A program made the translations under genes and the position numbers. A model generated the notes under the pieces. The model saw only the letters and a list, made by a program, of their open reading frames with translations. It had not been told where the DNA came from and searched no databases. A DNA stretch of 64,000 bases from Bradyrhizobium prioriisuperbiae. Lineage in GTDB: Bacteria; Pseudomonadota; Alphaproteobacteria; Rhizobiales; Xanthobacteraceae. Shown here piece after piece: positions 2,800-43,822 of this stretch (its first letter is position 1; each line of letters opens with the position of its first letter). The stretch lies in contig NZ_CP135921.1 of the NCBI RefSeq assembly GCF_032397745.1, positions 496,001-560,000 of the forward strand. Reading direction: 5' to 3'.

Positions 2800-2826
2800 C
2801 GCGACGAGGGCCACGTCGCCGGCCCT

Positions 2827-2926: not shown

Positions 2927-3004
2927 CGAGAAGAGCCAATCTCCAGAACTGTGCCGCGGCTTCGATCTCATGCTTCCGGCACTGGGAAAATCGTGGGAAG
3001 CGCG

Positions 3005-3643: not shown

Positions 3644-3653
3644 CGCTTCCGCG

Positions 3654-4403: not shown

Positions 4404-4428
4404 CCGTCTTTTCCTCCGGTTACAGCCA

Positions 4429-4529: not shown

Positions 4530-4578
4530 GGCCCCGCGCTGGAAGCCCGACCCCCGACGGATTCGTCAAGGAAGTATA

Positions 4579-4636
4579 TTGACTCCTCTATTATGTTCCT
4601 ACAATAATATATGTACGTACATAATATCCGAGGAGA
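4579..4636 (+). promoter_or_regulatory. Promoter, GntR-type operator and RBS of the lyase operon
   Basis: A -35-like TTGACT (4579-4584) is followed after about 18 bases by AATAAT (4603-4608). A perfect 14-bp palindrome TATGTACGTACATA (4610-4623) sits where transcription should start, ideal for repression. AGGAGA (4631-4636) is a good ribosome site 6 bases before the ATG at 4643. The AT-rich stretch contrasts with its GC-rich surroundings. Binding of the neighbouring GntR protein is inferred. Confidence 0.7.
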
Positions 4637-4642
4637 CGGTTC

Positions 4643-6007: not shown

Positions 6008-6075
6008 TTGGTCGCTACCCCATCGCAAGGCGCCCGAGAGCGCCAACAGCAACATCATCCTTTCGGGAGACAATC

Positions 6076-28607: not shown

Positions 28608-29942
28608 ATGACCTCGGCAACCGAAACCCCTGCCAGCGCTGAGCAAGATCCCGGTCCGGTCCGCTCCAAAGATCGCCCCCGTGTGGTCATTGTCGGCTCC
28701 GGCTTCGGCGGCCTGGAACTGGTGCACCGCCTCAACGGCGCGGCGGTCGACATCACGCTGATCGATCGCCGCAATCATCACCTGTTTCAACCATTGCTCT
28801 ATCAGGTTGCGACCGCATCACTCGCCACATCGGAAATCGCCTGGCCGGTGCGGCAACTGCTGCGCAAGCGCCGCGAAGTCACCACGCTGATGGCCACGGT
28901 GACTGGCGTCGATACCGCGGCCCGCCGTGTGCAGCTCGACGATGGTGCCACCGTGCCTTATGACACGCTGGTGCTGGCGACCGGCGCTCGCCATGCCTAC
29001 TTCGGCCACGACGAATGGGAGCCGTTTGCGCCCGGCCTGAAGACGCTGGAAGACGCCACCACCATCCGGCGCCGCATCCTGATGGCGTTCGAGCGCGCCG
29101 AGCGCGAGACCGACCCGCAACGCCGCGCCGCGCGGCTGACATTCGTGATCGTCGGTGCCGGCCCGACTGGTGTGGAGCTCGCCGGCACCATCGCGGAGCT
29201 CGCGCATGTCACCATGCCGGCAGACTTTCGCAATATCGACACCCGCAAGGCGCGGGTGATTCTGATCGAAGCCGGACCGCGCGTGCTGGCGGGCTTCCCT
29301 GAGGATCTCTCGGCCTATGCCCAACGCTCGGTGGAAAGCCTCGGTGTCGAAGTCGTGCTGGGACAGCCGGTGTCCGAATGCAACAGGGATGGCGTGGTCT
29401 ATGGCGGACAACGGCTCGCCGCCAAGACCATCATCTGGGCGGCGGGTGTGCGCGCCTCGCCCGCGGCGGAATGGCTCAACGCACCGGCGGACCGGGCGGG
29501 ACGGTTACAGGTTCTCCCTGACCTGACCGTACCCGGCCATCCGGAGATCTTTGCGGTTGGCGACACCGTGACCATTGCAGGCCCCAATGGCCAGCCGGTC
29601 CCCGGCATCGCACCCGCGGCCAAACAGCAGGGGCAATACGTGGCGGGGATGATCGCAGCGCGCCTGCGCGGCGATACCCCCCCTCCACCATTCCATTACA
29701 AACACGCCGGCAGCCTGGCACAGATCGGCAAGAAACTTGCGGTCATCGACTTCGGCCGCATCAAACTGCGCGGCACCATCGCCTGGTGGATCTGGGGCCT
29801 TGCCCACATCTATTTCCTGATCGGGGTGCGCAACCGCCTCCAGGTCGCGATCAGTTGGCTGTGGATCCATACCCGCGATCAGCGCAGCGCACGGCTGATC
29901 ACCCAGGGAAGCGCCCAGATCAATCCCCCCGGTCCGGGGTAG
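28608..29942 (+). CDS. ndh: Type II NADH:quinone oxidoreductase (NDH-2)
   Basis: A 444-residue membrane-associated flavoprotein passing electrons from NADH to quinone without proton pumping. The FAD site is VVIVGSGFGGLELVHRLNG, the quinone/FAD-proximal motif LFQPLLYQVATASLATSEIA is diagnostic of NDH-2, the NADH site is FVIVGAGPTGVELAGTIAEL, and EIFAVGDTVTIAG plus PAAKQQGQYVA complete the FAD fold. The C-terminal region WWIWGLAHIYFLIGVRNRL is the hydrophobic/amphipathic membrane anchor. The ATG at 28608 has GGGAG upstream. It is the last gene of the Rrf2-flavoprotein-cupin group and is convergent with the VWA gene. Confidence 0.9.
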   Translation: MTSATETPASAEQDPGPVRSKDRPRVVIVGSGFGGLELVHRLNGAAVDITLIDRRNHHLFQPLLYQVATASLATSEIAWPVRQLLRKRREVTTLMATVTGVDTAARRVQLDDGATVPYDTLVLATGARHAYFGHDEWEPFAPGLKTLEDATTIRRRILMAFERAERETDPQRRAARLTFVIVGAGPTGVELAGTIAELAHVTMPADFRNIDTRKARVILIEAGPRVLAGFPEDLSAYAQRSVESLGVEVVLGQPVSECNRDGVVYGGQRLAAKTIIWAAGVRASPAAEWLNAPADRAGRLQVLPDLTVPGHPEIFAVGDTVTIAGPNGQPVPGIAPAAKQQGQYVAGMIAARLRGDTPPPPFHYKHAGSLAQIGKKLAVIDFGRIKLRGTIAWWIWGLAHIYFLIGVRNRLQVAISWLWIHTRDQRSARLITQGSAQINPPGPG

Positions 29943-29985: not shown

Positions 29986-32280
29986 TCATTTCTTCAGTTC
30001 GCCATACAGCTGCATGATCCGCGCCGGCAATGCGGCAATGCGCGGGACGCGAAGTGCACGGCGGACGCCGAAAATCCGATCGAGCTGATGGAATGGCCCC
30101 TCTCCCATCCCGAAAGCGAAGGTATCGACGCCGCGGCGGCGCAGTTGCGAGACCACCCGCCTCGCATCCTCGGCAAGGTAGAGCGGATCCTGCACATCGA
30201 TATCCGACGGCTCGCCGTCGGTCAGGACCACCAGCACCCTCCGGAATGCGCGCCGCAACGCAAGCGCGCGGCCGGCATGGCGCAGCGCAGGTCCCAGCCG
30301 AGTCGAATGACTGCTGCTGAGACCGGCGAGACGCGCACGCACAATTCCATCCACCGGTTCGTCAAAGTCCTTGATGCGCACGTACCGCACCCGCTCGCGG
30401 CCATCGGAATTGAATCCATGCACCGCAATGGCATCGCCGGCGTCATGGACCGCGGAGGCAACGATCCTCGCCGCCTCACGCTCGATCGCGAGCACCGACT
30501 GTCCCTGACGATCACGGTCGGCGGTGGACTGCGACAAATCGAGCAGCAGCACGATCGCCAGATCGCGTGGCCCCGGCGCATCGCGCTGGTAGACCCGTGG
30601 CTCCGGCACCAGGCCGGCGCGGCGCTCGATGTTCCAGGCGATCGCTGCATCGATATCCAGCGTATCGCCGTCGTGCTGGCCCCTGTGCCTGATACGCCGA
30701 CCGATCGAGGCCTCACGCGCAAGCGCAGTGATCCGCTTCATCTCGACGGTCTCCGCTGGCAAAGCGCCGCCACCACCCCGGTCGACCGGAGCGTCCGCCT
30801 CCAGGATCGTGGTCCAGTCGGGGCGCTCGATACCCGCGGCATAATCCCACTCCGGATAGGTCGCGACCGGCAATCCTTCCGGCGGCGTCACAACTGTCCC
30901 GCGTGCGCGCAGGTTATCGGAACGGGCCGCTTCATCGGCCCGCTGCTGTCCGTCGGGCTGGTCACGCCGCTCGATCCGCACGGAATCGACCGGAAGCTCG
31001 ATCTCTTCGGACGGCGCGTCCGGCTGGTCGCCGAAATCCCACAGCGCCAGGTTGTCGTCGCGATAGACCGGCTCGACCACATAACTGCGGGCATTGAACT
31101 GCAGCCGCATCTGGCCCAGATCATTGCCCAGCAGCCCTCCGATCTCGCGGCTGATCGCCGGATCGCTCCATCGCTCAGTTGCGGCCGAAAACAACGCCCG
31201 TCCCTTGCCGACCCAGGCATCGCCCTCATCGTAAGCCGGATCGATCAGTGCACGCGCCAGCCGCGTCATCAATCCGGCAGCGGTCGTCTGCGACGATGGC
31301 TCTGCGGTGTGAAACGGCAACCATAGGCGTCGCAAGCCGGGTTTATCGTTCAGCGCCAGCGTCTCGACCCGCGCATCCTCGATCAATGACACCAGCGCGA
31401 TCTGCAACGGCTTCAGCTGCCCAACCGGAAAACGGATACCAGAATGCGACAGATGCGCGCCGGCATGGGCCGCAGCCGCAAGATAAATCGTGTCTGCGTG
31501 AGTGCCTTCGAAGCCGGGAAACGTTTCGGGCAAGCCGATCAGTCCCGCGGCCAGCGAAGCTCGCCGCTGCAGCGGCAAGGCGTCGGCGGCCACCAGCTTG
31601 CGAAACCGCGACTTGCTGTTCCACAGCGCCTGCATGGTCAGGGATAGCCGCCGTTCCAGCCGGGTGAAGTCGCCGCCGGATCGACCGAGCGCGAACAGGC
31701 GTTTCGACAACGCGTCGTCCAAACCGAAATAGGCACGTCGGCGCGCGGCGCTGCTGCCGCAGGCGCGCAGGCCGCCCGACACCCACACCGCGAAGTCCTC
31801 CGCATCGGCGGAAGCCAGCAACTGTTCGAGGCGGCCAATGGCCAGCACGACTGATTCCGGTGCCACCTCCGCAAGCTGGCGCAAAGCGGCTGACACGATC
31901 ATCAGATCGACCGACGCCGGCAGCCGCGGCAGCAGTTTCGGTATCGTGGCGAGCAGGACTTGCGCACTGCGACTGCCGGCTTCCCGGCCGACATGCCGCG
32001 CGGCTTCCCCTGTCGCCAGCAGATCCACGGCGGATCGATCGCGCGGCCACACCTCGGTCAGGCGCAGGAAGCCACGAACCGTGGCTTCGCCGAGATTGGC
32101 ATTGAGCAAGCCAAGCAGAATCTCATCCCAACGAGCGAGATCGATATTGTCGCCTCGACGCCCCAGCGCGGTGAGCGTGGCATGCAATGCCGCAAGCAGA
32201 TCACTGTTGTCACGAAGCAGCGCGGCAAACCGACGGCCTGATCGATAGTCACCGAGGGAGAGGACCTGCGCGCCCGGCAC
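29986..32280 (-). CDS. VWA-domain protein, CbbO/NorD family
   Basis: A 764-residue cytoplasmic protein and the last gene of the amide cluster. It starts at GTG 32280, directed by AGGAGA. The N-terminal two thirds is alpha-helical and family-specific; a charged Asp/Glu/Arg-rich linker (IERRDQPDGQQRADEAARSD) leads to a C-terminal von Willebrand A domain with the MIDAS motif DLSQSTA (about residues 578-584) and further metal-site parts near SSHSTRLGP and VLTDGEPSD. CbbO and NorD proteins work with a MoxR-type ATPase (CbbQ, NorQ) encoded next door to remodel and activate a client enzyme. No Rubisco or nitric oxide reductase gene is in the window. Here the pair sits behind amidase genes, so the client is probably encoded in the same cluster. 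Confidence 0.85.
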   Translation of the reverse strand: MPGAQVLSLGDYRSGRRFAALLRDNSDLLAALHATLTALGRRGDNIDLARWDEILLGLLNANLGEATVRGFLRLTEVWPRDRSAVDLLATGEAARHVGREAGSRSAQVLLATIPKLLPRLPASVDLMIVSAALRQLAEVAPESVVLAIGRLEQLLASADAEDFAVWVSGGLRACGSSAARRRAYFGLDDALSKRLFALGRSGGDFTRLERRLSLTMQALWNSKSRFRKLVAADALPLQRRASLAAGLIGLPETFPGFEGTHADTIYLAAAAHAGAHLSHSGIRFPVGQLKPLQIALVSLIEDARVETLALNDKPGLRRLWLPFHTAEPSSQTTAAGLMTRLARALIDPAYDEGDAWVGKGRALFSAATERWSDPAISREIGGLLGNDLGQMRLQFNARSYVVEPVYRDDNLALWDFGDQPDAPSEEIELPVDSVRIERRDQPDGQQRADEAARSDNLRARGTVVTPPEGLPVATYPEWDYAAGIERPDWTTILEADAPVDRGGGGALPAETVEMKRITALAREASIGRRIRHRGQHDGDTLDIDAAIAWNIERRAGLVPEPRVYQRDAPGPRDLAIVLLLDLSQSTADRDRQGQSVLAIEREAARIVASAVHDAGDAIAVHGFNSDGRERVRYVRIKDFDEPVDGIVRARLAGLSSSHSTRLGPALRHAGRALALRRAFRRVLVVLTDGEPSDIDVQDPLYLAEDARRVVSQLRRRGVDTFAFGMGEGPFHQLDRIFGVRRALRVPRIAALPARIMQLYGELKK

Positions 32281-32293
32281 GATGTCTCCTGAT

Positions 32294-33106
32294 CTAGATG
32301 CTGGCCGTGATCGCGTCGCGCAGCGCATTTCGGACATCCATATCGTCGGTGAGGGGAACGACGATCGTGGCCTCACAGGCATCATCCAGGTCGATACCGC
32401 ATCCGATCAGCCGGCCGGCATTGACCAGCATGCGGGTCGACGCGCCCTCATCAAGCCCTTGCCCTTTCAAATTGCGGCTGTGTGCGGCGATCTTCACCAG
32501 GAGGCCTGCAACGTTCGGATCGATACCAGCCTCGCGGGATACGATTTCGGCCTCGGCAGATCGATCCGGATAGCCGAAATCCAGCGCCGCGAAGCGCTGC
32601 TTGGTGGATTCCTTGAGATCCTTGATCGCGCTCTGGTAGCCGGGATTGTAGGAGATCACCAACTGGAAATCGGAATGGGCGTGGATCAGTTCGCCGCGCT
32701 TTTCCAGCGGCAACACCCGCCGATCATCGGTCAAGGGATGGATCACGACGGTGGTGTCCTGGCGCGCCTCCACGATCTCATCGAGATAACAGATCGCGCC
32801 ACAACGCACCGCCGTGGTCAAAGGCCCGTCGTTCCAGACTGTTCCCTGCGGATCGAGCAACCAGCGGCCGACCAGGTCCGCAGCCGTCATGTCTTCATGG
32901 CAGGCCACCGTGATCAGCGGGCGACCAAGACGCCAGCACATGTATTCGATGAAGCGGGTCTTGCCGCAGCCGGTGGGCCCTTTCAGCATCATCGGCATGC
33001 GACTGGCATAAGCGGCGCTGAACATAGCAATTTCATCCCCGACGGGCCGATAATACGGCTCGTCGAGAATCCGATACTGGTCGAGCAGCATCGCCGGGTT
33101 GGACAC
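32294..33106 (-). CDS. MoxR-type AAA+ ATPase, CbbQ/NirQ/NorQ family
   Basis: A 270-residue AAA+ ATPase. Walker A GPTGCGKT is at residues 43-50, Walker B CYLDE at about 106-110, sensor-type residues in [10 protein letters not shown], and the arginine-finger region near [14 protein letters not shown]. The length and the absence of extra domains match CbbQ/NorQ. It starts at GTG 33106 with a GAGAGGG site; the open frame continues upstream without homology. It lies 13 bases before the VWA gene, its expected partner. The pair lies downstream of an aliphatic amidase, an NCS1 permease and an alpha/beta hydrolase. The P. aeruginosa amidase operon also carries an ATPase gene (amiB), but I cannot establish orthology. 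Confidence 0.9.
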
Positions 33107-33161
33107 GCTTACGCCCTCTCTTTGCACCAGCGAAGATCGGACCGACCGCACGCGATCGACA

Positions 33162-34181
33162 TCATGATGCGAGCAGCTCCTTGAGTTTGGCGTCGATGAA
33201 GGCGACGTCCACCGGATTGGTTCCGGGGCCGCCGGCGAAGTGTCCCCATACCGACGGCACCGGCACGAACTTCGCATTCGGCATATGCGCGACCTCGTTC
33301 TCGCTGTCCTCTGGCGGGAAATAGAGATCAGTCTGGCCCGGCATGACGAACGTCTTGGCCTTGATCGCGCCGAGCGCGGCCTTGAAGTCGCCCTTGTAAA
33401 GGTCGTTGTCGCTGATGTCCCCGTTTTGCCAGGTCCAGAGCATGGTCAAGAGATTGTTGGGATCTTTCGGCAGGAAGAAACCCTCCCAGAATGCGACCAG
33501 AAAGTCCTCCAGTGAGGAATATCCCAGCGTCTTGATATCGAGCTCCTGGCGATAGAAGGCCTGGGAAAAGCCCCAGCCGGCGTAGACGCGCGCTGCGGCG
33601 CGCAGACCGCGTGCCGGTTTCTCGGTGTACCAGCCTTCGTTCCAGACCGCGTCCGCGGTCAGCGCCGCCTTGACTCCCTCGAGAAACACAATGTTGTGGC
33701 GCGAGCATTTGGCCGAGCCGCAGAACGGCGCCAGCAGGTCCATCATGGTCGGATAAAGCGCGCCCCAGTGGAAGGTCTGCAACGCTCCCATCGACCAGCC
33801 GACGACAAGCCGGATGTGCTCAATGCCGAACTTTTCAGTGACCAGGCGGTGCTGGGCGCGGACGTTGTCGTACGCGGTCACCTTGGGAAAACGCGGCCCA
33901 TTGTAAGGTTCCGGCGTATTGCTGGGCGACGAGGACAGCCCGTTGCCCAGCATGTTCGGAATGATGATGAAGTATTTGGCGGGATCGAGCGCCATGCCCG
34001 AGCCGACCAGCCATTCATTGTCGTAGTGCTGGCCGGAATACCAGGTCGGATAGACGATGACATTGTCCTTGGCTGCATTCAGCGTGCCGAAGGTCTTGTA
34101 GGCGAGCTTGCAGTCGCGCAGCGTCGCTCCCCGCTGCAGCACGACGTTGCCCAGGTCATAGATTTCATAATCGATACTCAT
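33162..34181 (-). CDS. Alpha/beta hydrolase, homoserine O-acetyltransferase-like
   Basis: A 339-residue cytoplasmic hydrolase or acyltransferase of the MetX-like branch. The nucleophile elbow is [10 protein letters not shown], the acid is probably in [13 protein letters not shown], and the catalytic histidine is in [28 protein letters not shown] replaces the usual oxyanion-loop sequence of true homoserine acetyltransferases. There is no methionine-pathway context; the gene sits inside the amide cluster between an NCS1 permease and the MoxR gene. It may hydrolyse an amide, ester or carbamate related to the amidase substrate; this is inference. The ATG at 34181 follows GGGACG. Confidence 0.78.
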
Positions 34182-34215
34182 CGATCGTCCCTTTCGTTTC
34201 TCGAAACAAAATCCA

Positions 34216-35550
34216 TCAGGCGGCGCGCGCCGCGCTCTCGGCCGGCGCTCCGACCTTTGCTATCACCAGATAAGCAATGCCGGCGACAACCGCAGCGGAG
34301 ATCGCCGTGGACAGGCTCGGCATCTTTTCCTCGACCACGAAGGCGCACAACGATCCGATGGCCCAGGCGATGAACGGTTTTGCGCGCCAGTCCGCCTCCG
34401 CATGTGAGTTGGTGCGCAACAGGTACTGATCGACAAGAATGATCGCGCCAATCGGCGGCACCAGGATGCCGAGCAGCGACAACCATTGGATGAAGAACGC
34501 CCAGACATTGCCCGCCGCCACAATGATGCCGATCACGCCCAGCACGATCGCCATGGCACGCATGTTGGTCCCGAGAATGCGCGACCAGCCGGTGGCCGCA
34601 TTGTAGAGGCAGTGCGAGCAGACTGAGCCGAGATTGGCGTAGAGAAAGATAAAGGCCAGGATGCTGAGCCAAGTCAGCTGCTTGCCGTTCATGTAGCCGA
34701 ACATGTTGTCGACGCCGAACGGATTGGCGTTGGGAACAGCCAGGGCCGCGGTCATCACCCCGCCCACCAGCATCGCAACCAGGTTGGCGAAGGGAAAAGC
34801 GCTGAATGTCGCGATCAAGGACGCTTTTGGCGATGGCGCCCAGCGATTGAAATCCGCCGTCACGGTTCCCGCATCGATGAACAGCGCCAGCACAACCGTT
34901 AGCCCGACGCCCATCGACATGGAAGCAACGCCATTGTTGCCGGCGTAGTCGAGGATGGCAGCCGCCGTTGTCGTGGTCGCTGCGTCCGCAGCCACCCATA
35001 ACCCGAGCACAACGAACAGAGGCACAGACGCAAGCCCGATCCAGTGCAGGCCCTTCACGCCGACGAAGGTAATCCCGATATAGAGCACGCCGGCGATAAT
35101 CGTCATGGCGACATAGCTGAGGCCGTAGGTTGAGGACACCAGCGCACCGGTAATGCCGGTCTGCACCGCATACCAGCCGAGCAGCAGGGTGGACAGCAGT
35201 CCCGACGCCAGCACATAGCCCTTCTTGCCGAACACGATGCTGGCGATCAGCGCAAAGTTCATGCCGCGCTTGGTGCCGATCAGGCCGAGTGCACCGACAT
35301 AAGCGAACATGATGATGTTGCCGAGGATCATGGCCACCAGCGCACTCTTGAAGCCCATTCCCAGCACCAGCAGCGACCCGGTCATCGCACCGGTGATGAT
35401 CATCGGAAAGCCGAGCCACACCATGGTGACCGAGAACGCACTGCGCCGGGCACTGACCGGAACCGGCTCATGCTCGTATTCGTGCCCCAGAAGTTCGTCG
35501 ATCTGTTCTTCGGTATGATGAACGATACCGGTATTCGCGTCGCTGTTCAT
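34216..35550 (-). CDS. NCS1-family permease (cytosine/purine/allantoin type)
   Basis: A 444-residue inner-membrane permease with about 12 helices, of the nucleobase:cation symporter-1 family that includes CodB and allantoin or hydantoin carriers. Typical parts are FSVTMVWLGFPMIITGAMTG in TM1, GTKRGMNFALIASIVFGKKG between TM2 and TM3, DAGTVTADFNRWAPSPK, and LLGILVPPIGAIILVDQYLL in TM10. The ATG at 35550 begins the cytosolic segment MNSDANTG; the open frame extends 20 codons upstream. It would give a second uptake route for a nitrogenous substrate beside the ABC transporter. A strong hairpin separates it from amiE. Confidence 0.88.
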   Translation of the reverse strand: MNSDANTGIVHHTEEQIDELLGHEYEHEPVPVSARRSAFSVTMVWLGFPMIITGAMTGSLLVLGMGFKSALVAMILGNIIMFAYVGALGLIGTKRGMNFALIASIVFGKKGYVLASGLLSTLLLGWYAVQTGITGALVSSTYGLSYVAMTIIAGVLYIGITFVGVKGLHWIGLASVPLFVVLGLWVAADAATTTTAAAILDYAGNNGVASMSMGVGLTVVLALFIDAGTVTADFNRWAPSPKASLIATFSAFPFANLVAMLVGGVMTAALAVPNANPFGVDNMFGYMNGKQLTWLSILAFIFLYANLGSVCSHCLYNAATGWSRILGTNMRAMAIVLGVIGIIVAAGNVWAFFIQWLSLLGILVPPIGAIILVDQYLLRTNSHAEADWRAKPFIAWAIGSLCAFVVEEKMPSLSTAISAAVVAGIAYLVIAKVGAPAESAARAA

Positions 35551-35600
35551 ATCAAGCCCCAATCCCTTTTGATGTGCTACCCCGGCAAATACCCTGGCAT

Positions 35601-35627
35601 GCGCCGGCACGGAGGCCGTGCCGGCGC
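35601..35627 (-). repeat. Intra-operon hairpin between amiE and the NCS1 permease gene
   Basis: A perfect 12-bp stem (GCGCCGGCACGG / CCGTGCCGGCGC) with a 3-base loop lies 11 bases after the amiE stop codon, with no T-run. It may protect the upstream amiE message or lower downstream expression. Confidence 0.6.
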
Positions 35628-35638
35628 GGCGTTTTCGT

Positions 35639-36676
35639 TCAACGATGCGCGGTCTTCTGGTTCGGGATGCCTTCGATCGGACTCTCGTCCGTGCCGACGG
35701 TCGGGCGGGTCATGGCTTCGACCATCTCCCGAGTCCCTTCGGGATCGCTGATCCAGTTCTTGTAGAAAGTGTAGGGACAGACCGCGTGGCCGCGATCACC
35801 CTCGCCCGAATTGATCAGGCCGGTGTAACCGCGGTGCACCAGCTTGAAGAGATGGTTCTGCGACTGCATGTTGCGCCGTGCGTCGCGGATCAGCGACACG
35901 GAGAGCTGTGCATACTGGATGCCGTTCTCCTCGGTGCCGCACTCGCCAAGCGTACGTCCGTCGAAGCCGACGATCGCCGAATGTCCGAAGTAGGAATAGA
36001 CACCGTCGAAGCCCGCCGCATTGGCGACCGCAACATAGACGTTGTTGGCCCACGCCATCGCCTTCGACATGATGACCTGCTGATCCTTGGCCGGATACAT
36101 GTAGCCCTGGCAGCGCACGATCAGTTCGGCACCGCGCATCGCGCAATCGCGCCAGATTTCGGGATAATTGCCATCGTCGCAGATGATCAGGCTGATCTTC
36201 AGCCCCTTCGGGCCGTCGGAGACGTAGGTGCAATCGCCCGGGTACCAGCCCTCGATCGGCACCCAGGGCATGATCTTGCGGTATTTCTGGACGATCTCGC
36301 CCTTGTCGTTCATCAGGATCAGGGTGTTGTAGGGCGCCTTGTTCGGGTGCTCCTCATGGCGCTCGCCGGTCAGCGAGAACACGCCCCACACCTTGGCCTT
36401 GCGGCAGGCATCGGCAAAGATCGCGGTTTCCTCGCCGGGAACACTCGAGGCCGTCTCGTACATCTCCTTGGAGTCGTACATGATGCCGTGGGTGGAGTAT
36501 TCCGGGAAGATCACCAGATCCATTCCCGGCAGGCCGAGCTTCATGCCCTCGACCATGCTCGCGATGTTGCGGGCGTTCTCCAGGACCTGCGCCTTGGTAT
36601 GAAGGCGCGGCATCTTGTAATTGACCACGGCGACGCCGACCGTGTCCTTGCTCGAAGAAATATCACCATGCAACAT
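35639..36676 (-). CDS. amiE: Aliphatic amidase
   Basis: A 345-residue nitrilase-superfamily amidase hydrolysing short aliphatic amides to carboxylate and ammonia. It appears closely collinear with Pseudomonas aeruginosa AmiE (from memory): [20 protein letters not shown] at the N-terminus, and the catalytic triad at the same numbers, Glu59 (FPEYS), Lys134 (KYRKIMPW) and Cys166 (CDDGNYPE). [15 protein letters not shown] and [11 protein letters not shown] are further hallmarks. The close match favours AmiE over formamidase AmiF. The ATG at 36676 has AAGGAG upstream. It follows the ABC transporter genes by 71 bases and is probably induced through the AmiC/ANTAR pair encoded upstream. Confidence 0.95.
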
Positions 36677-36747: not shown

Positions 36748-37443
36748 TCACACCGCCATGTGGCGATGAACCATCCCGTCGCTGAGCTCTCCGATATCAC
36801 CCGTGGCGACGACGCGTCCCTTCTCCATCATGGCGAAGCGATGCGCCGCCCTGCGGGCAAATGAAACGTTCTGCTCGACCAGCATCACCGTGAGGCCGAG
36901 CTCGCTATTGAGGCGAACGATGACGTTCTCGATCTCTTCCACGATCGAAGGTTGAATGCCTTCGTTCGGCTCATCGAGAAGAATGACCTTCGGATTGGCG
37001 GCCAGCGCGCGGGCGATCGCCAGCTGTTGCTGCTGACCGCCGGACAGCACGCCGCCGTTGCGATCGAGGTTGTTTATCAGGTACGGAAACAGCTCCGCCA
37101 CCAGCGGTGGAATCTCGCGCCGACCATCGGTACGGGCGAAGGCACCCATCAGGATATTGTCGCGAATGGTGAAATCCGGGATGATCTCGCGGCCTTGGGG
37201 AACGTAGGCGATGCCGGCACGGGCGCGGAGAAAAGTGGGTTGCTGACCGAGATCGATGTCGTCGAAACGAATCTGCCCCTTCATCCGGTCGGTCAGGCCC
37301 ATCAACGTCTTGAGCAGCGTGGTCTTGCCCGTGCCGTTGCGGCCGAGCACCGCCATGATCTTTCCGAGCGGAACATCGAGACAGATATCATGCAGGATGT
37401 GACTACGATCATAGAAGCTGTCGACGTTTGCGAACATCAGCAT
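36748..37443 (-). CDS. Urea/short-chain amide ABC transporter ATP-binding protein (UrtE/LivF-like)
   Basis: A 231-residue ABC ATPase, second of a pair. Walker A is GRNGTGKTT, the Q-loop region GIAYVPQGREI is typical of LivF/UrtE, the signature is LSGGQQQQLAIARAL, Walker B VILLDEPNEGIQ, and the switch His is replaced by EQN in MLVEQNVSF, as normal for LivF types. Its ATG at 37443 overlaps the stop codon of the preceding ATPase gene by one base (TGATG), so translation is coupled. A TTG two codons' distance upstream is less likely. The complete transporter feeds substrate to the amidase encoded next. Confidence 0.92.
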   Translation of the reverse strand: MLMFANVDSFYDRSHILHDICLDVPLGKIMAVLGRNGTGKTTLLKTLMGLTDRMKGQIRFDDIDLGQQPTFLRARAGIAYVPQGREIIPDFTIRDNILMGAFARTDGRREIPPLVAELFPYLINNLDRNGGVLSGGQQQQLAIARALAANPKVILLDEPNEGIQPSIVEEIENVIVRLNSELGLTVMLVEQNVSFARRAAHRFAMMEKGRVVATGDIGELSDGMVHRHMAV

Positions 37444-38192
37444 CAACCGATCCCTTTCGAGCCGAGATAAGCTTCCCGCACTTTGGGATTGGTCTCGATC
37501 TGCTGGACATTCCCCTCCGCGAGCACCTGGCCGAGGTGCAGCACCGTGATGCGTTCGGCGATCTCGCGCACGAAGGCCATATCGTGTTCGACCACGATGA
37601 TGGTGTGCCGCCCCCTGAGATTGTTGACAATCAGGGACGTCTTGTGCGTTTCGGTCTGAGTCATGCCGGCCGTCGGCTCGTCAAGCAGGACGATTTTCGG
37701 ATTCTGCGTGATCAGGAGCCCCAGTTCGAGCCACTGCGTCTGGCCGTGACTGAGATAGGCCGCGATGTGGTCCGCCTCCTCGGTCAGGCCGATCAGCTCC
37801 AGCACCTCGTCGATCTCGGCCTTGGCCTGCGTGCCGAAGCCGAAGCGGAGATTGGCGAGCACGCCGGGATTCTTGCAGCTCGCGACTTCCAGATTGCGAC
37901 GGACGGACAGATCCTTGAATACGCTCGGGATCTGGAACTTCCGCCCGACTCCGGCGCGCGCGATCTTGTGCTCTTCCCAGTTGGTGATGTCAGTGTCATG
38001 CAAGAACACCCGGCCGGACGTGCTTTTTGTCTTGCCGGAAATCAGATCCATCAGCGTGGTCTTGCCGGCGCCGTTGGCACCGAGCAGGACCCGCAATTCG
38101 CCGTCGTCGATCGTCATCGAGACGTTGTTGACCGCCTTGAAGCCTTCGAAATCGACCCCGAGCCCATCGATCGTCAACGCGGTCTGCGCCAT
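37443..38192 (-). CDS. Urea/short-chain amide ABC transporter ATP-binding protein (UrtD/LivG-like)
   Basis: A 249-residue ABC ATPase. Walker A is GANGAGKTT, VGRKFQIPSVFKDLSVRRNL is the LivG/UrtD Q-loop region, the signature position reads LSHGQTQWLELG as in UrtD proteins (LSHGQ rather than LSGGQ), Walker B is IVLLDEPTAGM, and the switch His is in VVEHDMAFV. The LSHGQ signature places it with urea/amide rather than branched-chain amino acid systems. It starts 5 bases after the upstream permease gene. Confidence 0.92.
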   Translation of the reverse strand: MAQTALTIDGLGVDFEGFKAVNNVSMTIDDGELRVLLGANGAGKTTLMDLISGKTKSTSGRVFLHDTDITNWEEHKIARAGVGRKFQIPSVFKDLSVRRNLEVASCKNPGVLANLRFGFGTQAKAEIDEVLELIGLTEEADHIAAYLSHGQTQWLELGLLITQNPKIVLLDEPTAGMTQTETHKTSLIVNNLRGRHTIIVVEHDMAFVREIAERITVLHLGQVLAEGNVQQIETNPKVREAYLGSKGIG

Positions 38193-38197
38193 GTCAG

Positions 38198-39343
38198 TTA
38201 CTCCGCCAGTTGCGATGTGTTGGTGGCGCGCAGCTCTCGGGACGATGACGGAAGCTTTCGAGTCACGACACGGGCGACGAAGTCATGTGCGAGGCCGGCG
38301 AGGCCGCGCGGCAGATACAGCACGACCAGAACGAAGATCAGCCCGATAATCGCCTTCCAGGCTTCGGCAAAGCCCGCTGTTTCGCTGACGGTCGCCGAAA
38401 TGATGTTGATCAGGATGGCGCCGATGCAGGCGCCAAGGATGGACGAGCGGCCGCCGACCGCGGCCCACACCACCATGGTGATGGAGAACGTCAGATCCAT
38501 GAAAGTCGGCGATGCGAACTCCGACACGACCACGTAAAGCATGCCGGCGAAGCCAGCGATCGCCGCCGACACCGCAAAGAAGAAGGTCTGGTAGACCGGC
38601 ACGTCGAAGCCAAGGCACCGGGCCCGATTCTCGTCGTCACGGATCGCCTGCAGGATGATTCCGGCCCTGGTCTCGACCAGAAGCCGCGCACCCGCCAGCA
38701 CGATGGCGAGCGAGATCGCGACCAGGTAATAGGTCTGGACCACATAGGGATCGAATTCAAAGCCGGCGACCTTGAACCAGCCGAGATCGGTCAGGCCGTT
38801 GAAGCCATTGGTGATCGGCTGCGCATCGATCACGACGAGCCTGACCAGCAGCACCAGCGCCAGCGTGATGATCGAGACGAACACACCCGCGATACGCTTG
38901 CGGAAAACGATGGTGCCGATGATCGCTGCGATCGCCACCGGCAGGATCAGCGCCATCGCCACGCCGAACCACTGGTTCTGGAACGGCAGCCACAGAAACG
39001 AAGCCTTGTTGATGCAACACAGTTCGGTTGGCGCACCGGGCTCGGCGTTCCAGAGCATGAAGTCGGGCACCGGCTTGTCGGAGCCCTGCCGCAGGCTGGT
39101 CGTGCTCGCCAGCTTCAGCGACATCGCCAGCATGTAGGCTCCGGCGCCGAAGAACAGGCCCTGGCCGAGATTGAGAATGCCAGCATAGCCCCACGACAGT
39201 GCCACCGCGACGCCAAGCATCCCATAGACCAGGTACTTCGCCACCCGATTGAGCCAGAACGGATCCATCGCCAGCGGCGCCAGCATGATGAGGACGATGA
39301 AAGCTGCGTAGATGCCCCATTCGATTCGGCGCGTCGGCGACAT
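38198..39343 (-). CDS. Urea/short-chain amide ABC transporter permease (UrtC/LivM-like)
   Basis: A 381-residue polytopic membrane permease. The N-terminal helix (IYAAFIVLIMLAPLAMDPFW) and the conserved LivM-type loop AIRDDENRARCLGFDVPVYQ with the following FAGMLYVVVSEF are visible. An extended periplasmic loop around residues 80-110 carries PDFMLWNAEPGAPTELCC, typical of UrtC compared with LivM. It is separated by one base from the upstream permease gene. Confidence 0.9.
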   Translation of the reverse strand: MSPTRRIEWGIYAAFIVLIMLAPLAMDPFWLNRVAKYLVYGMLGVAVALSWGYAGILNLGQGLFFGAGAYMLAMSLKLASTTSLRQGSDKPVPDFMLWNAEPGAPTELCCINKASFLWLPFQNQWFGVAMALILPVAIAAIIGTIVFRKRIAGVFVSIITLALVLLVRLVVIDAQPITNGFNGLTDLGWFKVAGFEFDPYVVQTYYLVAISLAIVLAGARLLVETRAGIILQAIRDDENRARCLGFDVPVYQTFFFAVSAAIAGFAGMLYVVVSEFASPTFMDLTFSITMVVWAAVGGRSSILGACIGAILINIISATVSETAGFAEAWKAIIGLIFVLVVLYLPRGLAGLAHDFVARVVTRKLPSSSRELRATNTSQLAE

Positions 39344-39344
39344 C

Positions 39345-40238
39345 TCAGCGGCCTTTCAGGGCGAACAGGCCCTTCGGCTTGAGAATGATGATCAAGATCA
39401 CGACCCCGAACACCACCGCGCGCGCCAGGATGTCGTTGGTCGCCGCGGCGACGAAACCATTGATCTCGCCGAGGATGCCTGCGGACAGCACCGAGCCGAG
39501 CAGACTGCCGACACCGCCCATCACGACCACGAGAAAGCCATCGACCACCATCGACGTGCCCATGTCGGGAAACACGGTCTTGAAACCCGACATCATCACG
39601 CCGGCGATGCCGGCAAGACCCGAGCCGAACGCAAAGGTCAGCGCGTTGATACGCGCGACGTTAATGCCACAGGCTGCCGCCATCTTCGGATTGCGAATTA
39701 TCGCGCGAACCTGCATGCCGATGGCCGTTCGGTACATGATAAGCCACGTCACGAACGCCAGAACCGCGGTGACGAAAATGATGAATGTGCGATAGCGGTT
39801 GATCTCCGCACCACCGATCACGAACGTGCCCTGCAAAATCGCCGGAACGCTGACGTTCTGCAGTCCCGGCCCCAGTCCCTGGATGTGAATACCGAAGAAC
39901 GAGAGAGCTAGTTCCAACCGCACTGCCTGCTGGATCAGGATCGCGATGCCCCATGTCGCAAGCAGTGTGTCGAGGAGACGGCCATAGAGGCGACGCACCA
40001 CCACATGTTCGATCAAAAGCCCCAGCAGCGCAGTGACGATGAAGGCAATCGGAATGGCGACGAAAATGTTGGCGCCGAGCCAGATGCCGGACAGCACCGT
40101 GACATAGGCGCCGATCATCACCAGCTCGCCGTGCGCCATGTTGATCACACCCATGGCGCCGTAGGTGATGGCGAGACCCAGCGCCACCAGCAGCAGAATC
40201 GAGCCGACGCTGAGACCGATGAACAAAACCTCGAGCAT
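39345..40238 (-). CDS. Urea/short-chain amide ABC transporter permease (UrtB/LivH-like)
   Basis: A 297-residue membrane permease with about eight helices. GLAITYGAMGVINMAHGELVM is the hallmark N-terminal segment of LivH/UrtB, and ATWGIAILIQQAVRLELALSFFG and VRAIIRNPKMAAACGINVAR match the cytosolic coupling region. The ATG at 40238 lies 60 bases after the binding-protein stop codon; the gap holds a GC-rich hairpin. Confidence 0.9.
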   Translation of the reverse strand: MLEVLFIGLSVGSILLLVALGLAITYGAMGVINMAHGELVMIGAYVTVLSGIWLGANIFVAIPIAFIVTALLGLLIEHVVVRRLYGRLLDTLLATWGIAILIQQAVRLELALSFFGIHIQGLGPGLQNVSVPAILQGTFVIGGAEINRYRTFIIFVTAVLAFVTWLIMYRTAIGMQVRAIIRNPKMAAACGINVARINALTFAFGSGLAGIAGVMMSGFKTVFPDMGTSMVVDGFLVVVMGGVGSLLGSVLSAGILGEINGFVAAATNDILARAVVFGVVILIIILKPKGLFALKGR

Positions 40239-40298: not shown

Positions 40299-41570
40299 TC
40301 AGATCTTCAGCTTGGCCGTGTCGAGTCCCTTGCCCGTGCAGAACAGGTTGGACTCGGTCTCGCCATAGGCGACGTAGGGCAGCGGAATCGTCGGCTCCTT
40401 GTAGGCGTCGATGATCTTGCCCTGGCCGTTCGCTTGCCACTGCGCGATGCGCGGCGTGAGGTAGGTATGAAGGTTATCGGGATCGATCTTCACGTGACCG
40501 TTCGGCGCATCGAACTCCTGCCCCTTGACCGCTTCGCGGATCGCAACAGGTGTCACCTCGGTGGCTTTTTCGACTGCCTGCTTCCAGAGGAAAACCTGGA
40601 AATAGGAGGATTCGAGCGCGTGGTGCGTGACCGCCTTGGGATCCTTGACGAAGGCGCGATAACGCTCGACGAACGCCTTGTTGCGATCGGTGTCGATGGC
40701 CTGGAAGTACGGGAATGATGTATAGCTGCCAACCGCATATTCGGGCCCCATGGCGGCGATTTCGATTTCCGACGTCACCGTGGCGCAGATCGGCAGCTTG
40801 TCGTGGGTGAGGCCCTGGTTCTTGTATTCACGATAGAAGGCGACCACCGAATCACCGACCACGTTGGATAGCACCACATCGCAGCCCGAGCCCTTGATCT
40901 TGTTGACCATCGAGCCCCATTCGGAATGGCCGAGTTCAAGATATTCGTCGGCGATCCACTCCCCGCCGCTCTTTTCGATCAGGATCTTCGAGACCTTCGC
41001 CATCTCACGGGGATAGATGTAGTTCGAGCCGACGATGAAGAATTTCTTCTTGCCGAGGGTCTTAACGATCCAGGGAATGAAGTTCGAGAGCTGCTGGTTC
41101 GGAACGGCGCCAGTGTAGACGACGTTCTTCGAACACTCGAAGCCTTCGTAATAGGTCGGATAGAAGTAGAGGTTGTTGCGCTTTTCGAACACCGGCAGCA
41201 CCGCCTTGCGGCTTGCGGAGGTATACGATCCGAACACCGTCGGAACCCGATCCTGAATGACGAGCTTTGAAGCTTTCTCGTTGTAGGTCTTTGGATCTGA
41301 GGCGCCGTCTTCGGCAATCGCCGAGATCTTCATCCCCTTGACGCCGCCGGCCGCGTTGATCTCGCTGATCGCCATCATGGTGGCGTCGTGAAGCGACTTC
41401 TCGACGATGGACAGACCGCCGGTCAGCGAAAACAGCACGCCGACCTTGATTTCTCCACCTGCGGCGCGCGCCAGATCGGCGTTCTTGATCCAGATGTGTG
41501 GCAGGCCGGCGCCGGCGAAGGCACCAAACGCTGCTGCATTTTTCACCAAAGTCCGCCTCGAAATGCCCAT
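40299..41570 (-). CDS. Urea/short-chain amide ABC transporter substrate-binding protein (UrtA/FmdD-like)
   Basis: A 423-residue periplasmic binding protein of the type I Leu/Ile/Val superfamily. The N-terminus MGISRRTLVKNAAAFGAFAG looks like a twin-arginine or Sec signal. The mature part shows GVLFSLTGGLSIVEKSLHD, SYTSASRKAVLPVFEK, YPTYYEGFECSKNVVYTGA and VGSNYIYPREMAKV, all typical of UrtA/FmdD proteins for urea and short amides. The ATG at 41570 has GGGAGCAAGAG upstream and comes 15 bases after an attenuator T-tract. It is paralogous to the AmiC-like protein at 42345, but unlike it carries an export signal. Confidence 0.92.
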   Translation of the reverse strand: MGISRRTLVKNAAAFGAFAGAGLPHIWIKNADLARAAGGEIKVGVLFSLTGGLSIVEKSLHDATMMAISEINAAGGVKGMKISAIAEDGASDPKTYNEKASKLVIQDRVPTVFGSYTSASRKAVLPVFEKRNNLYFYPTYYEGFECSKNVVYTGAVPNQQLSNFIPWIVKTLGKKKFFIVGSNYIYPREMAKVSKILIEKSGGEWIADEYLELGHSEWGSMVNKIKGSGCDVVLSNVVGDSVVAFYREYKNQGLTHDKLPICATVTSEIEIAAMGPEYAVGSYTSFPYFQAIDTDRNKAFVERYRAFVKDPKAVTHHALESSYFQVFLWKQAVEKATEVTPVAIREAVKGQEFDAPNGHVKIDPDNLHTYLTPRIAQWQANGQGKIIDAYKEPTIPLPYVAYGETESNLFCTGKGLDTAKLKI

Positions 41571-41584
41571 CTCTTGCTCCCAGA

Positions 41585-41650
41585 GTAAAAAAGGAAAAGA
41601 AAAAACAAAAAGCCCTCCCGATGCGCGCTGACGCGAGCATTGGGAGGGCT
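41585..41650 (-). terminator. Intrinsic terminator/attenuator before the amide transporter genes
   Basis: On the minus strand, AGCCCTCCC-a-ATGC and GCAT-c-GGGAGGGCT pair around a 12-base loop, followed by TTTTTGTTTTTTCTTTTCC. The terminator stands between the ANTAR regulator gene and the binding-protein gene, so transcription must be antiterminated for the downstream ten genes to be expressed. Confidence 0.85.
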
Positions 41651-41670
41651 TTGTTGCCTGATGTATCGAA

Positions 41671-41706
41671 GGCGGCGCTGTCGCCGCCAATCCCCGCTAT
41701 TGGGGA
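41671..41706 (-). promoter_or_regulatory. Two leader hairpins, candidate ANTAR-protein RNA target
   Basis: Read on the minus strand, TCCCC-AATAGC-GGGGA (41706-41691) and, two bases on, GGCGGC-GACAGC-GCCGCC (41688-41671). Both can be drawn with six-base loops sharing the pattern N-A-(T/C)-A-G-C. ANTAR proteins bind paired hairpins with hexanucleotide loops having a conserved A and G three positions apart, as here; in my drawing they fall at loop positions 2 and 5 rather than 1 and 4. The hairpins lie directly before the attenuator, and the first begins next to the stop codon of the ANTAR gene. Confidence 0.6.
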
Positions 41707-42348
41707 CTAGTGTTGCGGATCGTAGCCAAGCAATTCGAAGGAGTCAACGATCGCAGCGGCAACTGCACTCGCCGACACGCGACGATCCATCGCTTGCCGA
41801 CGAATGAATCCGTAAGCTTCCGTCTCCGGCATTTGCCGCGTCGCCATCAGGATCGCCTTGGCGCGTTCGACGGTTCGCATCGAGCGCAGATTTTCATCGA
41901 GCTTTTCGATCTTGCTGCGCAGCCGCCGCTCATAGCCGAACTGGCTGCGCGCCAGGATCAAGCTCGACAACACCGCATTGGGCGTAAACGGACGCGACAG
42001 CACCGCATTGGGTGTGGCATGGGACAGCGCTTCTGCCTGAATCGCCTCCGTCGCCGGCACAATCACGACCAGCGCCGAGCGCGCATCACCTGGAATCCAC
42101 GGCAGCCGGCGAGCGAGATCATTGCAGTAGTCGCAATAGACCACATCCGCATCGCCCGGGACGCTTTCCGGCATCGGCCACACCTGCCGCACCCGCATCC
42201 GGAATCGCTGCAATTCCCGCAGCAACAGGCTGGTCTGGTCATCAACCAGGGCAACCACAACGGCGCTCAGGTCTGCCAGCTCCTGCACCATCGATTTACG
42301 GCCCGGCATCTCCCGGCTGCTGCCGGGTTTACGCATGGTTTCAGTCAT
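41707..42348 (-). CDS. amiR: ANTAR-domain transcription antiterminator (AmiR-like)
   Basis: A 213-residue protein with an N-terminal receiver-like domain lacking an obvious phosphorylation pocket (ADLSAVVVALVDDQ, residues about 20-140), a coiled-coil (YERRLRSKIEKLDENLRSM) and a C-terminal ANTAR RNA-binding domain (RTVERAKAILMATRQMPETE through RQAMDRRVSASAVAAAI). This is the build of P. aeruginosa AmiR, an antiterminator kept inactive by AmiC until amide is present. Its ATG overlaps the AmiC-like stop codon (ATGA), ensuring paired production. The leader with two hexaloop hairpins and a terminator directly downstream is its likely target. Confidence 0.88.
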   Translation of the reverse strand: MTETMRKPGSSREMPGRKSMVQELADLSAVVVALVDDQTSLLLRELQRFRMRVRQVWPMPESVPGDADVVYCDYCNDLARRLPWIPGDARSALVVIVPATEAIQAEALSHATPNAVLSRPFTPNAVLSSLILARSQFGYERRLRSKIEKLDENLRSMRTVERAKAILMATRQMPETEAYGFIRRQAMDRRVSASAVAAAIVDSFELLGYDPQH

Positions 42349-43502
42349 TGAGCGTGTCCTGCATGTGCGGTTGCCCGGCCGTATCCGATCAGGAACGGAT
42401 CGGCGTGCACCGCCTCTTTTGATTGATTGATGATATCGAACTGCCCCTGGCGATTGGCGCGACCGATCCGGGTCCAAAGATCAGTGTGACCCGACATCGG
42501 ATTGACGGTGACGGCACCTTGCGGCGCATCGAAGCTGCTGCCCATGACCATCGATCGCAGGACTTCGGTATCTAGGGTGTTGGCCAGCTCCAGCGCCCGC
42601 GCAAACAGGTGCAACTGGAAGTAGGAGGCTTCGACGCACATGTTGGTCGAGACATCGCTGCCGAACCGTTTCTTGAAGCGGCTGACAAACGAATTGTTGG
42701 CGCTGCCCTCGATGCCCTGGAAGTAGGACGCGGCAGTGATGTGGCCCTCGCCGACGTCGAAGCCCATGGCCGCAATCTCGGCTTCGGTGGTGGTCAGGCT
42801 GGCGATCGGCATCTTGCGCGGATCGAGCCCGACATTGGTATAGGCCTGGTAGAGATAGACCGTCCCCTCCCCGACCACGGTCGAGAAAATCACATCGGGC
42901 TTGAGCCTGCGAATATCCTGCACGATCGGCAGAAAATCCTGCCAGCGCGCATGAACGCCGACATAACGCTCGCCGACCACCGAACCGCCATTGGCCTTCA
43001 GCAGCTCGCGCATCACCCGATTGGATTCGCGCGGATAGATGTAGTCCGAGCCGACAAAGTAGAAGCGATTGCCGTAGGTATCCATCAGGTAACGGCACAG
43101 CGCGAGGCTGTTTTGATTGGGCGATGCCCCAGTGTAGATAACGTTGGGCGACGCCTCGAATCCTTCATACAGCGTCGGATACCACAGCAGACCGTTCAAC
43201 CGTTCGACCACCGGCAGCACGGCTTTGCGGCTGGACGAGGTGTAGCAACCGAAGATGGTGCTGACCTGATCCTCGATCATCAGGCGCTTGGCATAGTGTC
43301 CGTAAGCGATCGAATCGGAGCCGGGGTCGTAGGCGACAGGAACCAGCTCCCGGCCGCATACGCCGCCGGCCGCATTGATCTCCTCGATCGCCAATAATGT
43401 GCCCTGATACTGCGTGTCTTCGATCACCGACATGAAGCCGGTACGCGAGAACAACACGCCAATCCGCCAGGGGGCGGACGTTTCGTGCGACAGGCTGGCC
43501 AT
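42345..43502 (-). CDS. amiC: Cytoplasmic amide sensor, AmiC-like binding protein
   Basis: A 385-residue type I periplasmic-binding-protein fold without a signal peptide: it begins SLSHETSAPWRIGVLFSRTG, so it stays in the cytoplasm. Segments FGCYTSSSRKAVLPVVERLN, YPTLYEGFEASPNVIYTGA and FVGSDYIYPRESNRVMREL parallel both AmiC and the exported binding protein at 40299, from which it was probably derived. In Pseudomonas, AmiC binds AmiR and releases it when amide binds (established). The ATG at 43502 has GAGGG upstream; GTG 43508 is an alternative. It is the first gene of the cluster. Confidence 0.88.
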   Translation of the reverse strand: MASLSHETSAPWRIGVLFSRTGFMSVIEDTQYQGTLLAIEEINAAGGVCGRELVPVAYDPGSDSIAYGHYAKRLMIEDQVSTIFGCYTSSSRKAVLPVVERLNGLLWYPTLYEGFEASPNVIYTGASPNQNSLALCRYLMDTYGNRFYFVGSDYIYPRESNRVMRELLKANGGSVVGERYVGVHARWQDFLPIVQDIRRLKPDVIFSTVVGEGTVYLYQAYTNVGLDPRKMPIASLTTTEAEIAAMGFDVGEGHITAASYFQGIEGSANNSFVSRFKKRFGSDVSTNMCVEASYFQLHLFARALELANTLDTEVLRSMVMGSSFDAPQGAVTVNPMSGHTDLWTRIGRANRQGQFDIINQSKEAVHADPFLIGYGRATAHAGHAQ

Positions 43503-43822
43503 GATCACACCCTCGATGTTTTAAAGAGGGACGGGAACGATTGTTACTCTTGAACGCAAATTTCGATAAAAAGATTGCACGCCACCTGAACGGAAACAAG
43601 CACAGCTTTTCATCGCTGCCTGCATACGCGGCAAAAAGCGAACCGGTCAACTCTGGAAGACTCTCAAGTCACGCGTGAACGGAGTGCTGAACCCTCGGCA
43701 CAACTCGCGCGTTCACTGAGCATGTGAAACGTCGAGACACCATTCGGCAGCCACCGGTCGGCAGGAACAAGCAAACCCGATTGCAGCCGCGGCTGCCCAT
43801 TCCAAGCACACATCGCTCCACC
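43503..43822. other. Intergenic region upstream of the amide cluster
   Basis: About 320 of the nearly 400 bases separating the divergent amiC-like gene and the small basic-protein gene. It should hold the promoter of the amide cluster, but I could not find a good sigma-70 pair, and a TGGC-containing stretch near 43575-43590 lacks the -12 GC needed for sigma-54. No open reading frame or RNA gene stands out. Confidence 0.4.

Follow-up and report, generated by a model that had tools for sequence, protein, structure and literature searches.

Within a 64,000-nucleotide stretch of the Bradyrhizobium prioriisuperbiae genome (contig NZ_CP135921.1, positions 496,001 to 560,000; here called the window), an amide operon ends in two adjoining genes, one for a CbbQ-type MoxR AAA+ ATPase and one for a large CbbO-type VWA protein. 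MoxR-VWA machines are widespread, and for most of them we know of no client. Our analysis suggests that the pair in the window represents a third branch of CbbQ/CbbO-type machines, that its client is the aliphatic amidase AmiE encoded in the same operon, and that it acts on this enzyme by activase-like remodelling, a reading that we consider likely as a whole. The assignment of AmiE as the client appears very probable from the sequences compared here. A role in amide metabolism, beyond the two described for such pairs, had been the third option of an initial annotation of this DNA, and it is the one that the evidence supports. The three genes at issue are the following:

35639..36676, minus strand: AmiE aliphatic amidase, 345 amino acids, the proposed client (NF009802, 718 bits against a cut-off of 427)
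35642..35647, minus strand: C-terminal His-Arg codons of AmiE (cat cgt, then tga), read from the sequence
32294..33106, minus strand: CbbQ-type MoxR AAA+ ATPase, 270 amino acids, GTG start (AAA_5, 1.9e-33; CbbQ_C, 6.5e-30)
29986..32280, minus strand: VWA protein of the CbbO type, 764 amino acids, GTG start (PF00092 at 610-771 of a longer reading)

Linkage of the CbbQ–VWA Pair to amiE

Related loci were collected from two sources. Nine (L010 to L018) came from 150 genomes of the same order, with the genome of the window excluded, and 80 came from a scan of GTDB contigs, these being the best 80 of 551 confirmed loci. The resulting 89 loci include repeats (for example, L042/L106), and some are cut by contig ends. 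Alongside the close VWA relative by which the loci were recognised, CbbQ was present in 89/89 and AmiE in 88/89; in the sole locus without AmiE, the contig starts just 0.2 kb upstream of cbbQ. The genes often follow each other directly in the order amiE-cbbQ-VWA, and are convergent in other loci. Urt components were found in 58 to 78 of the loci, the MetX-like hydrolase in 32, the NCS1 permease in 28 and a urease cluster (ureE-F-AB-C-G) in 24. The initial annotation had proposed a survey of amiE loci and had named linkage in this genome alone as a refutation; the linkage is not confined to this genome. That annotation had also set AmiE aside because it needs no metal, and had ranked the hydrolase or an enzyme encoded elsewhere as the more likely client. 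We, too, know of no metal centre in AmiE, but the counts place amiE far ahead of both the hydrolase and urease, and among the proteins of these loci whose C-termini were read, AmiE is the only bearer of the motif described below.

The hosts range from Bradyrhizobium and from Azospirillum to Thioclava, and include Burkholderiales as well as records labelled Oceanobacillus and Mesoflavibacter. Among the matches listed, 64 plasmids had AmiE at E ≤ 1e-100, and at least 27 of them also appeared among the VWA matches. In a sample of the phylum, 31 of 398 genomes had AmiE. The 30 AmiE loci beyond the genome of the window comprised seven in which CbbQ–VWA lies beside AmiE, eight in which an unrelated ATPase takes that slot, 15 with neither and none with both. 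The order sample also yielded 38 further VWA loci without AmiE, which were classified by neighbour: RbcL lay by nine and a COX1-family gene of NorB score by 22, in each case no more than about 5 kb away along the contig. Seven had no assigned neighbour (four with a Rubisco-type score and three with a NorD-type score), and in most of these the contig shows no client. Matches at the protein level in the loci fetched gave the same picture, apart from three pairs of the phylum sample (L234, L237 and L240) that are taken up below.

The C-Terminus of AmiE

Rubisco CbbQO recognises the large subunit RbcL through a C-terminal HK/R motif that was identified experimentally and that is missing from carboxysomal Rubiscos without CbbQO; truncation or extension of the RbcL end by a single residue abolishes activation, and there are Rubiscos that end in NR instead and that the cognate CbbQO activates (passages of PMC8718961). 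In the Rubisco-linked loci collected here, 11 form I RbcL proteins ended in VAHR or VAHK (L239 reads differently with two queries), and form II-like RbcL had a penultimate His in 9/9 and HK in 5/9. None of the 13 NorB proteins in NorB-linked loci ended in H[RK].

The AmiE of the window ends in Ala-His-Arg, followed directly by the stop codon (gcg cat cgt tga). In a first set of 95 full-length AmiE proteins encoded beside a CbbQ–VWA pair, 92 ended in His-Arg, two in His-Lys and one in His-Ala, and the H[RK] end, or handle, occurred in 0/17 unpaired AmiE and in 0/12 linked to AmiB, an ATPase considered below. (L042, L044, L106, L107 and L118, in which AmiE was cut or absent, were excluded from this count; all except L107 were read later.) Among the AmiE alignment columns listed, the penultimate His was alone in splitting paired from unpaired proteins cleanly, and the last residue did so nearly (Arg in 97% versus 2/17). 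A prediction recorded in advance for 23 unused loci with 24 AmiE proteins gave His-Arg in 11/11 with CbbQ and in 0/13 without. A class sample for AmiE added few loci (eight of 385 genomes). The prediction held again in a further family sample of eight loci, the handle being present in 5/5 with the pair and 0/3 without; two of the five, L270 and L271, are probably repeats of L095 and L115, whose contigs have the same lengths. The tally before this last sample, which includes truncated copies and the 24 AmiE test rows, stood at 109 of 110 paired rows with H[RK] (93 of 94 distinct), versus none of 42 (41 distinct) on the unpaired side, made up of 13 AmiB-linked and 29 other rows. Distinct counts are given because of the repeats among the 89 loci. 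A penultimate His was found in all 110 paired AmiE proteins, the sole exception to H[RK] being L126, which ends in HA.

As a control for kinship, an AmiE tree of 93 rows was built with the tail excluded. Supported branches gave six independent contrasts, which all ran in the same direction in 193 of 200 pairings, with five and one tie in the other seven (median p 0.031, range 0.031-0.063); all branches gave ten contrasts. The smaller first set had given three contrasts, in the same direction in nearly all pairings (p 0.25). Two Azospirillum AmiE proteins separated by a distance of 0.043 illustrate the pattern, one ending in ...EPAHR with the pair and the other in ...ELPRN without it. The stretch between a G-[ILV]-P motif and the C-terminus differed in length, at 6 to 10 residues, and the terminal His-Arg stayed constant throughout, so that it is the end of the protein itself that is conserved.

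The handle was restricted to AmiE among the nine proteins of the amidase loci that were read: H[RK] ended 0/25 UreC, 0/24 UreAB, 0/25 UreG, 0/22 UreF, 0/22 UreE, 0/35 hydrolase, 0/27 NCS1 permease and 0/116 UrtA-like proteins.

A Proposed Third Branch of CbbQ/CbbO-Type Machines

The best solved relative of the window CbbQ was 5c3c, a CbbQ/NirQ/NorQ domain protein (4e-121), followed by CbbQ 6l1q and then NorQ 9qh4. The Walker A and B residues of CbbQ are kept in the AmiE-, Rubisco- and NorB-linked groups and are intact in the window ATPase. This protein matches CbbQ_C in full at 104.9 bits and is alone in the genome in doing so; a second match covers positions 12-51 of 85 at 22.6 bits, slightly above the cut-off of 20.6. 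The VWA protein consists of an N-terminal domain and a C-terminal VWA domain (474-762) that aligns with NorD 9qhd (1.5e-59) and has an intact metal ion-dependent adhesion site (MIDAS; D581, S583, S585, T660 and D688), whose residues are conserved across the same three groups. In the N-terminal domain, H272, E301, D302 and D408 are invariant in the AmiE- and Rubisco-linked rows and present in ≤15% of the NorB-linked rows, and D409 occurs in 97 to 100% of AmiE- and Rubisco-linked proteins and is rare in NorB-linked ones. From this conservation, our guess is that these five residues are candidates for a pocket that would receive the tail of the client.

A joined CbbQ and VWA tree was built from 74 rows picked for diversity, with L234, L237 and L240 excluded. 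The 13 NorB-linked rows formed one clade and the 21 Rubisco-linked rows another, with the 40 AmiE-linked rows between them, an arrangement that requires just two changes of neighbour. AmiE-linked and Rubisco-linked pairs grouped together against NorQD, and the window pair fell in the AmiE-linked group, excluded from the Rubisco-linked clade with an SH-like approximate likelihood ratio test (SH-aLRT) value of 100. The pair in the window thus appears to belong to a third branch of CbbQ/CbbO-type MoxR-VWA machines, neither NorQD nor the Rubisco CbbQO clade, and adjoining the latter. On all three trees (CbbQ, VWA and both), the Rubisco clade was nested within the AmiE-linked group, and its sister was an AmiE-linked pair from Burkholderiales. 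However, approximately unbiased (AU) tests did not reject a single AmiE-linked clade (p 0.39, 0.22 and 0.16), and for this reason we did not adopt a nested origin of the Rubisco CbbQO. A broader proposal would be that a His-Lys/Arg C-terminus is a general address label of the CbbQO branch on unrelated enzymes (amidase, Rubisco and perhaps a tubulin-like protein), and that the Rubisco CbbQO derived from an amidase-repair machine once Rubisco gained the label; this we regard as rather doubtful.

Plasmids of Agrobacterium (L252) and Shinella (L269) carry a second CbbQ–VWA pair, 90% alike, adjoining tubulin/FtsZ-like proteins (positions 204-5982 of CP129670.1:112333-129367 and 2561-6575 of NZ_OZ000536.1:28500-36200, respectively). 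On the Agrobacterium plasmid, these neighbours gave Tubulin and Tubulin_2 matches below the cut-off. The upstream protein, of 564 amino acids, ends in -AHA and so shares its penultimate His with some of the form II-like RbcL proteins and with a single AmiE; the downstream protein has no such end. No full-length tubulin-like copy is annotated upstream of the pair on the Shinella plasmid. Tubulin/FtsZ-like proteins are a possible third class of client.

The Amide Operon in the Window

The amide operon is one tightly packed unit of 12 genes on the minus strand, running from 43508 to 29986. In the 5' to 3' direction, it encodes an AmiC-like protein, an AmiR-type protein, a UrtA-like protein, UrtB, UrtC, UrtD, UrtE, AmiE, an NCS1 permease, the hydrolase, CbbQ and the VWA protein. 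Besides the genes listed above, the features are:

42345..43508, minus strand: AmiC-like amide sensor (reading frame; labelled by position, sequence and a similar gene beside AmiR in related loci)
41707..42477, minus strand: AmiR-type ANTAR antiterminator (PF21332 AmiR_N, PF03861 ANTAR)
40299..41690, minus strand: UrtA-like amide/urea binding protein (PF13433, 1.6e-148; below the UrtA cut-off; true start further in)
39345..40238, minus strand: UrtB-like permease (TIGR03409 above cut-off)
38198..39343, minus strand: UrtC-like permease (TIGR03408 above cut-off)
37443..38192, minus strand: UrtD-like ABC ATPase (reading frame; labelled by position and sequence)
36748..37446, minus strand: UrtE-like ABC ATPase (TIGR03410 above cut-off)
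34216..35610, minus strand: NCS1-type cytosine/allantoin-like permease, optional cargo (PF02133; true start probably 35550)
33162..34181, minus strand: MetX-like alpha/beta hydrolase of the PRK07581 family, optional cargo (NF005757, 570 bits against a cut-off of 332)

Family matches placed the AmiE, NCS1 permease, MetX-like hydrolase, CbbQ and VWA genes on the minus strand at the positions given by the initial annotation. The CbbQ–VWA pair does close a transcription unit, as it had proposed, but the unit is larger, continuing upstream through urtE to urtB and the UrtA-like, AmiR and AmiC genes. The hydrolase gene is separated from cbbQ by 55 bases, and cbbQ from the VWA gene by 13; a Shine-Dalgarno-like sequence supports the 764-residue reading of the latter. 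Solved relatives of the window AmiE are 2plq and 2uxy.

NCBIfam gives the family of the hydrolase, PRK07581, the name "hypothetical protein"; the hydrolase recurs alongside amiE and the NCS1 permease as an optional partner. Two genes that by eye resemble NDH-2 (NADH:quinone oxidoreductase), at 26725-27936 and 28608-29942 with a small gene in between, are encoded on the other strand past the 3' end of the VWA gene. On Shinella and Rhizobium plasmids (L251, L254), acs (acetate-CoA ligase) directly follows amiE-cbbQ-VWA, and on a Mycolicibacterium plasmid (L205) it directly follows the amiE-AmiB genes; this position fits acetamide as the substrate.

Candidate Clients Elsewhere in the Genome

The initial annotation had stated that Rubisco and NO reductase, the clients of the known pairs, are not here. 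This holds for the window, and no cytochrome-c-type NO reductase (cNOR) was recognised among the four COX1-family matches of the genome, the sole NorB-scoring one being followed by a cytochrome-c gene that by eye resembles CcoO. However, the genome does contain a form I Rubisco at C1:573548, about 45 kb from the operon. By eye, a CbbX-like ATPase lies directly beside it, and its large subunit ends in -SLTV. The known clients elsewhere in the genome do not explain the pair.

A urease cluster with a fused UreAB, in the order ureE-F-AB-C-G, accompanies amiE/CbbQ–VWA islands in L041, L043-L046, L082, L261 and others. The UreC of this amidase type is about 78-85% alike within the type and 52-57% to a second type of urease; the window genome carries both. 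Its amidase-type copy occupies a separate locus (C1:6640000-6659900) beside AmiC- and AmiR-like genes, and no AmiE, CbbQ or VWA was found in the 19.9 kb that were read.

A Clp-Type ATPase in the Same Slot

The Pseudomonas-type amidase operon has the order amiEBCRS (passage of PMC5259723). In the phylum sample, the eight ATPases in the slot beside amiE were assigned because they share 47-56% identity with a protein of a Klebsiella plasmid. Three slot proteins were scanned, from Klebsiella, Mycolicibacterium and Rhodococcus plasmids, and gave AAA_2 and ClpB_D2-small, the architecture of Clp-type proteins; no VWA match was found in the stretches with such proteins. An identity of AmiB with the CbbQ of the window operon was rejected, the AmiB-slot proteins being Clp-type and not MoxR. 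By their sequences, two unrelated AAA+ machines are recruited to the same place beside amiE. AmiB-linked AmiE proteins (L189-L196, L201, L202, L267) tend to end in G[KQL]E[KR] followed by some further residues, as seen in 11 of 13 rows. This tail is perhaps a second, AmiB-specific handle; kinship may also explain it, since the AmiB-linked AmiE proteins form one clade on an AmiE tree.

Proposed Function and Alternatives

By analogy with the Rubisco activase, the VWA protein would bind the C-terminus of AmiE, probably via its N-terminal domain, and would hand or lever the amidase against the CbbQ hexamer, whose ATP hydrolysis would pull or twist and so remodel an AmiE subunit. As to purpose, we lean, with some reserve, towards an activase that opens an active site caught in a dead-end inhibited state. 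As the trap, we find most plausible a stable thioester formed with an amide or urea on the catalytic cysteine, which we take to be Cys166; a carbamoyl adduct from urea or cyanate would be an example. The trapping amide or urea would enter through the same Urt-type transporter, and metal insertion would be unnecessary. Urea inhibits two formamidases, according to a passage of a review (PMC10781810). Our literature searches brought up no work that we recognised on the trapping of AmiE by urea.

Several observations weigh against this proposal. In the phylum sample, half of the AmiE loci (15/30) have neither machine; none of these 15 genomes has an AmiE-type VWA elsewhere (weak partial matches in four), or an AmiB besides ordinary large Clp proteins. 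The machine is therefore an accessory, and AmiE generally needs no such help. In the same sample, the stretches fetched for the CbbQ–VWA pairs L234, L237 and L240 gave no match to RbcL, AmiE or NorB. Among the AmiE rows, L246 was counted as paired although its stretch stops before the VWA gene, and L197 was counted as paired although its VWA gene is annotated as two pieces and the locus gave no CbbQ match. The idea of a urea trap has thin support, in older work on the Pseudomonas aeruginosa amidase and the review passage on formamidases. Furthermore, the handle speaks for recognition, and not for what the machine does next. The L197 locus is on an Acidithiobacillus caldus plasmid (NZ_CP005987.1), where AmiE ends in -RHK and is followed by the two-piece VWA gene, with insertion sequence (IS) elements on either side; it is probably a decaying copy.

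The same client might be served in another way, the pair folding, assembling or disassembling the AmiE hexamer as a form of maturation or quality control, with no removal of an inhibitor. The handle evidence fits this equally well, cofactor assembly and further kinds of remodelling have been attributed to MoxR proteins (passage of PMC9976466), and a passage on a related Pseudomonas veronii operon suggests assembly or activation (PMC13209695). We nevertheless consider it unlikely, and prefer repair, because the nearest experimentally known relatives, the Rubisco CbbQO, repair inhibited active sites (passage of PMC8718961), with the pair standing beside them and not beside NorQD on the tree, and because half of the sampled AmiE loci manage without a machine.

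Other clients would fit the linkage less well. If the pair aided metal insertion, as NorQD does (passage of PMC9976466), its client could be the nickel urease of the islands, a single type of which lies near amiE and the pair in about a quarter of the loci (24/89); but in 65/89 loci the stretch fetched holds the pair without a urease (some being contig-cut), the copy in the window genome occupies another locus with no such pair in the 19.9 kb that were read, and UreC lacks the H[RK] end (0/25), which makes this very improbable. In the window, as in many loci of Bradyrhizobium, the gene of the MetX-like hydrolase immediately precedes cbbQ, but its presence in just 32/89 loci and the absence of the handle from all 35 copies read make it hardly credible as the client. 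A metal-insertion role was dropped, since neither urease nor hydrolase accompanies the pair constantly or carries the handle. Finally, the pair might serve Rubisco or NO reductase elsewhere, the movement of a mobile operon having linked it to amiE by chance. In favour of this, a form I Rubisco is present in the genome, but a CbbX-like ATPase lies beside that enzyme, which has a different C-terminus, no cNOR was recognised, and both the linkage and the covariation of the tail are seen repeatedly, across many families of Alphaproteobacteria and in Burkholderiales, so that we give this explanation next to no weight.

If remodelling of AmiE by the pair is correct, the amidase would offer a soluble, easily assayed model of client remodelling by CbbQO machines. 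It would also suggest that AmiE, a classic induced enzyme, has a dead-end state costly enough for two unrelated ATPases to be recruited to it. The proposed client was named from sequence alone, through a label at its C-terminus that is known from Rubisco, and this label permits a hunt for other clients. The result also bears on the origin of the CbbQO Rubisco activase.

Comparison with Known Systems

A Pseudomonas veronii plasmid carries an operon of amiE, CbbQ-like, NorD-like, amiC and amiR genes, for which the authors suggest, in one sentence, a role in amidase assembly or activation (PMC13209695, 2026). Its gene content is the same as that described here. Unlike the present survey, that account concerns a single operon, and the passages available contain no survey, C-terminal handle or relation to the Rubisco activase. 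Our literature searches found no paper linking AmiE to CbbQO by its C-terminus, and what appears to be new here is a CbbQO-type machine with a new client.

AmiB of the Pseudomonas-type operon resembles the window ATPase in being an AAA+ protein encoded next to amiE in a similar operon. It differs in its domains, AAA_5 and CbbQ_C in the window compared to AAA_2 and ClpB_D2-small in the AmiB slot, as judged from the three scanned plasmid proteins. NorQ and NorD belong to the same two protein families as the window pair, but NorB-linked pairs form a clade of their own, NorB has no H[RK] end, and H272, E301, D302 and D408 are rare in NorD.

The closest likeness is to the Rubisco CbbQO. In both, an AAA_5 and CbbQ_C ATPase adjoins a large VWA protein, the invariant residues of the CbbO N-terminal domain are common to the two, the client, known or proposed, bears a C-terminal His-Lys/Arg, and the window pair is sister to the Rubisco-linked pairs or has them nested beside it on the tree. 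Unlike the Rubisco CbbQO, the pair described here lies outside the Rubisco-linked clade, in an operon without Rubisco genes, and its proposed client is an aliphatic amidase.

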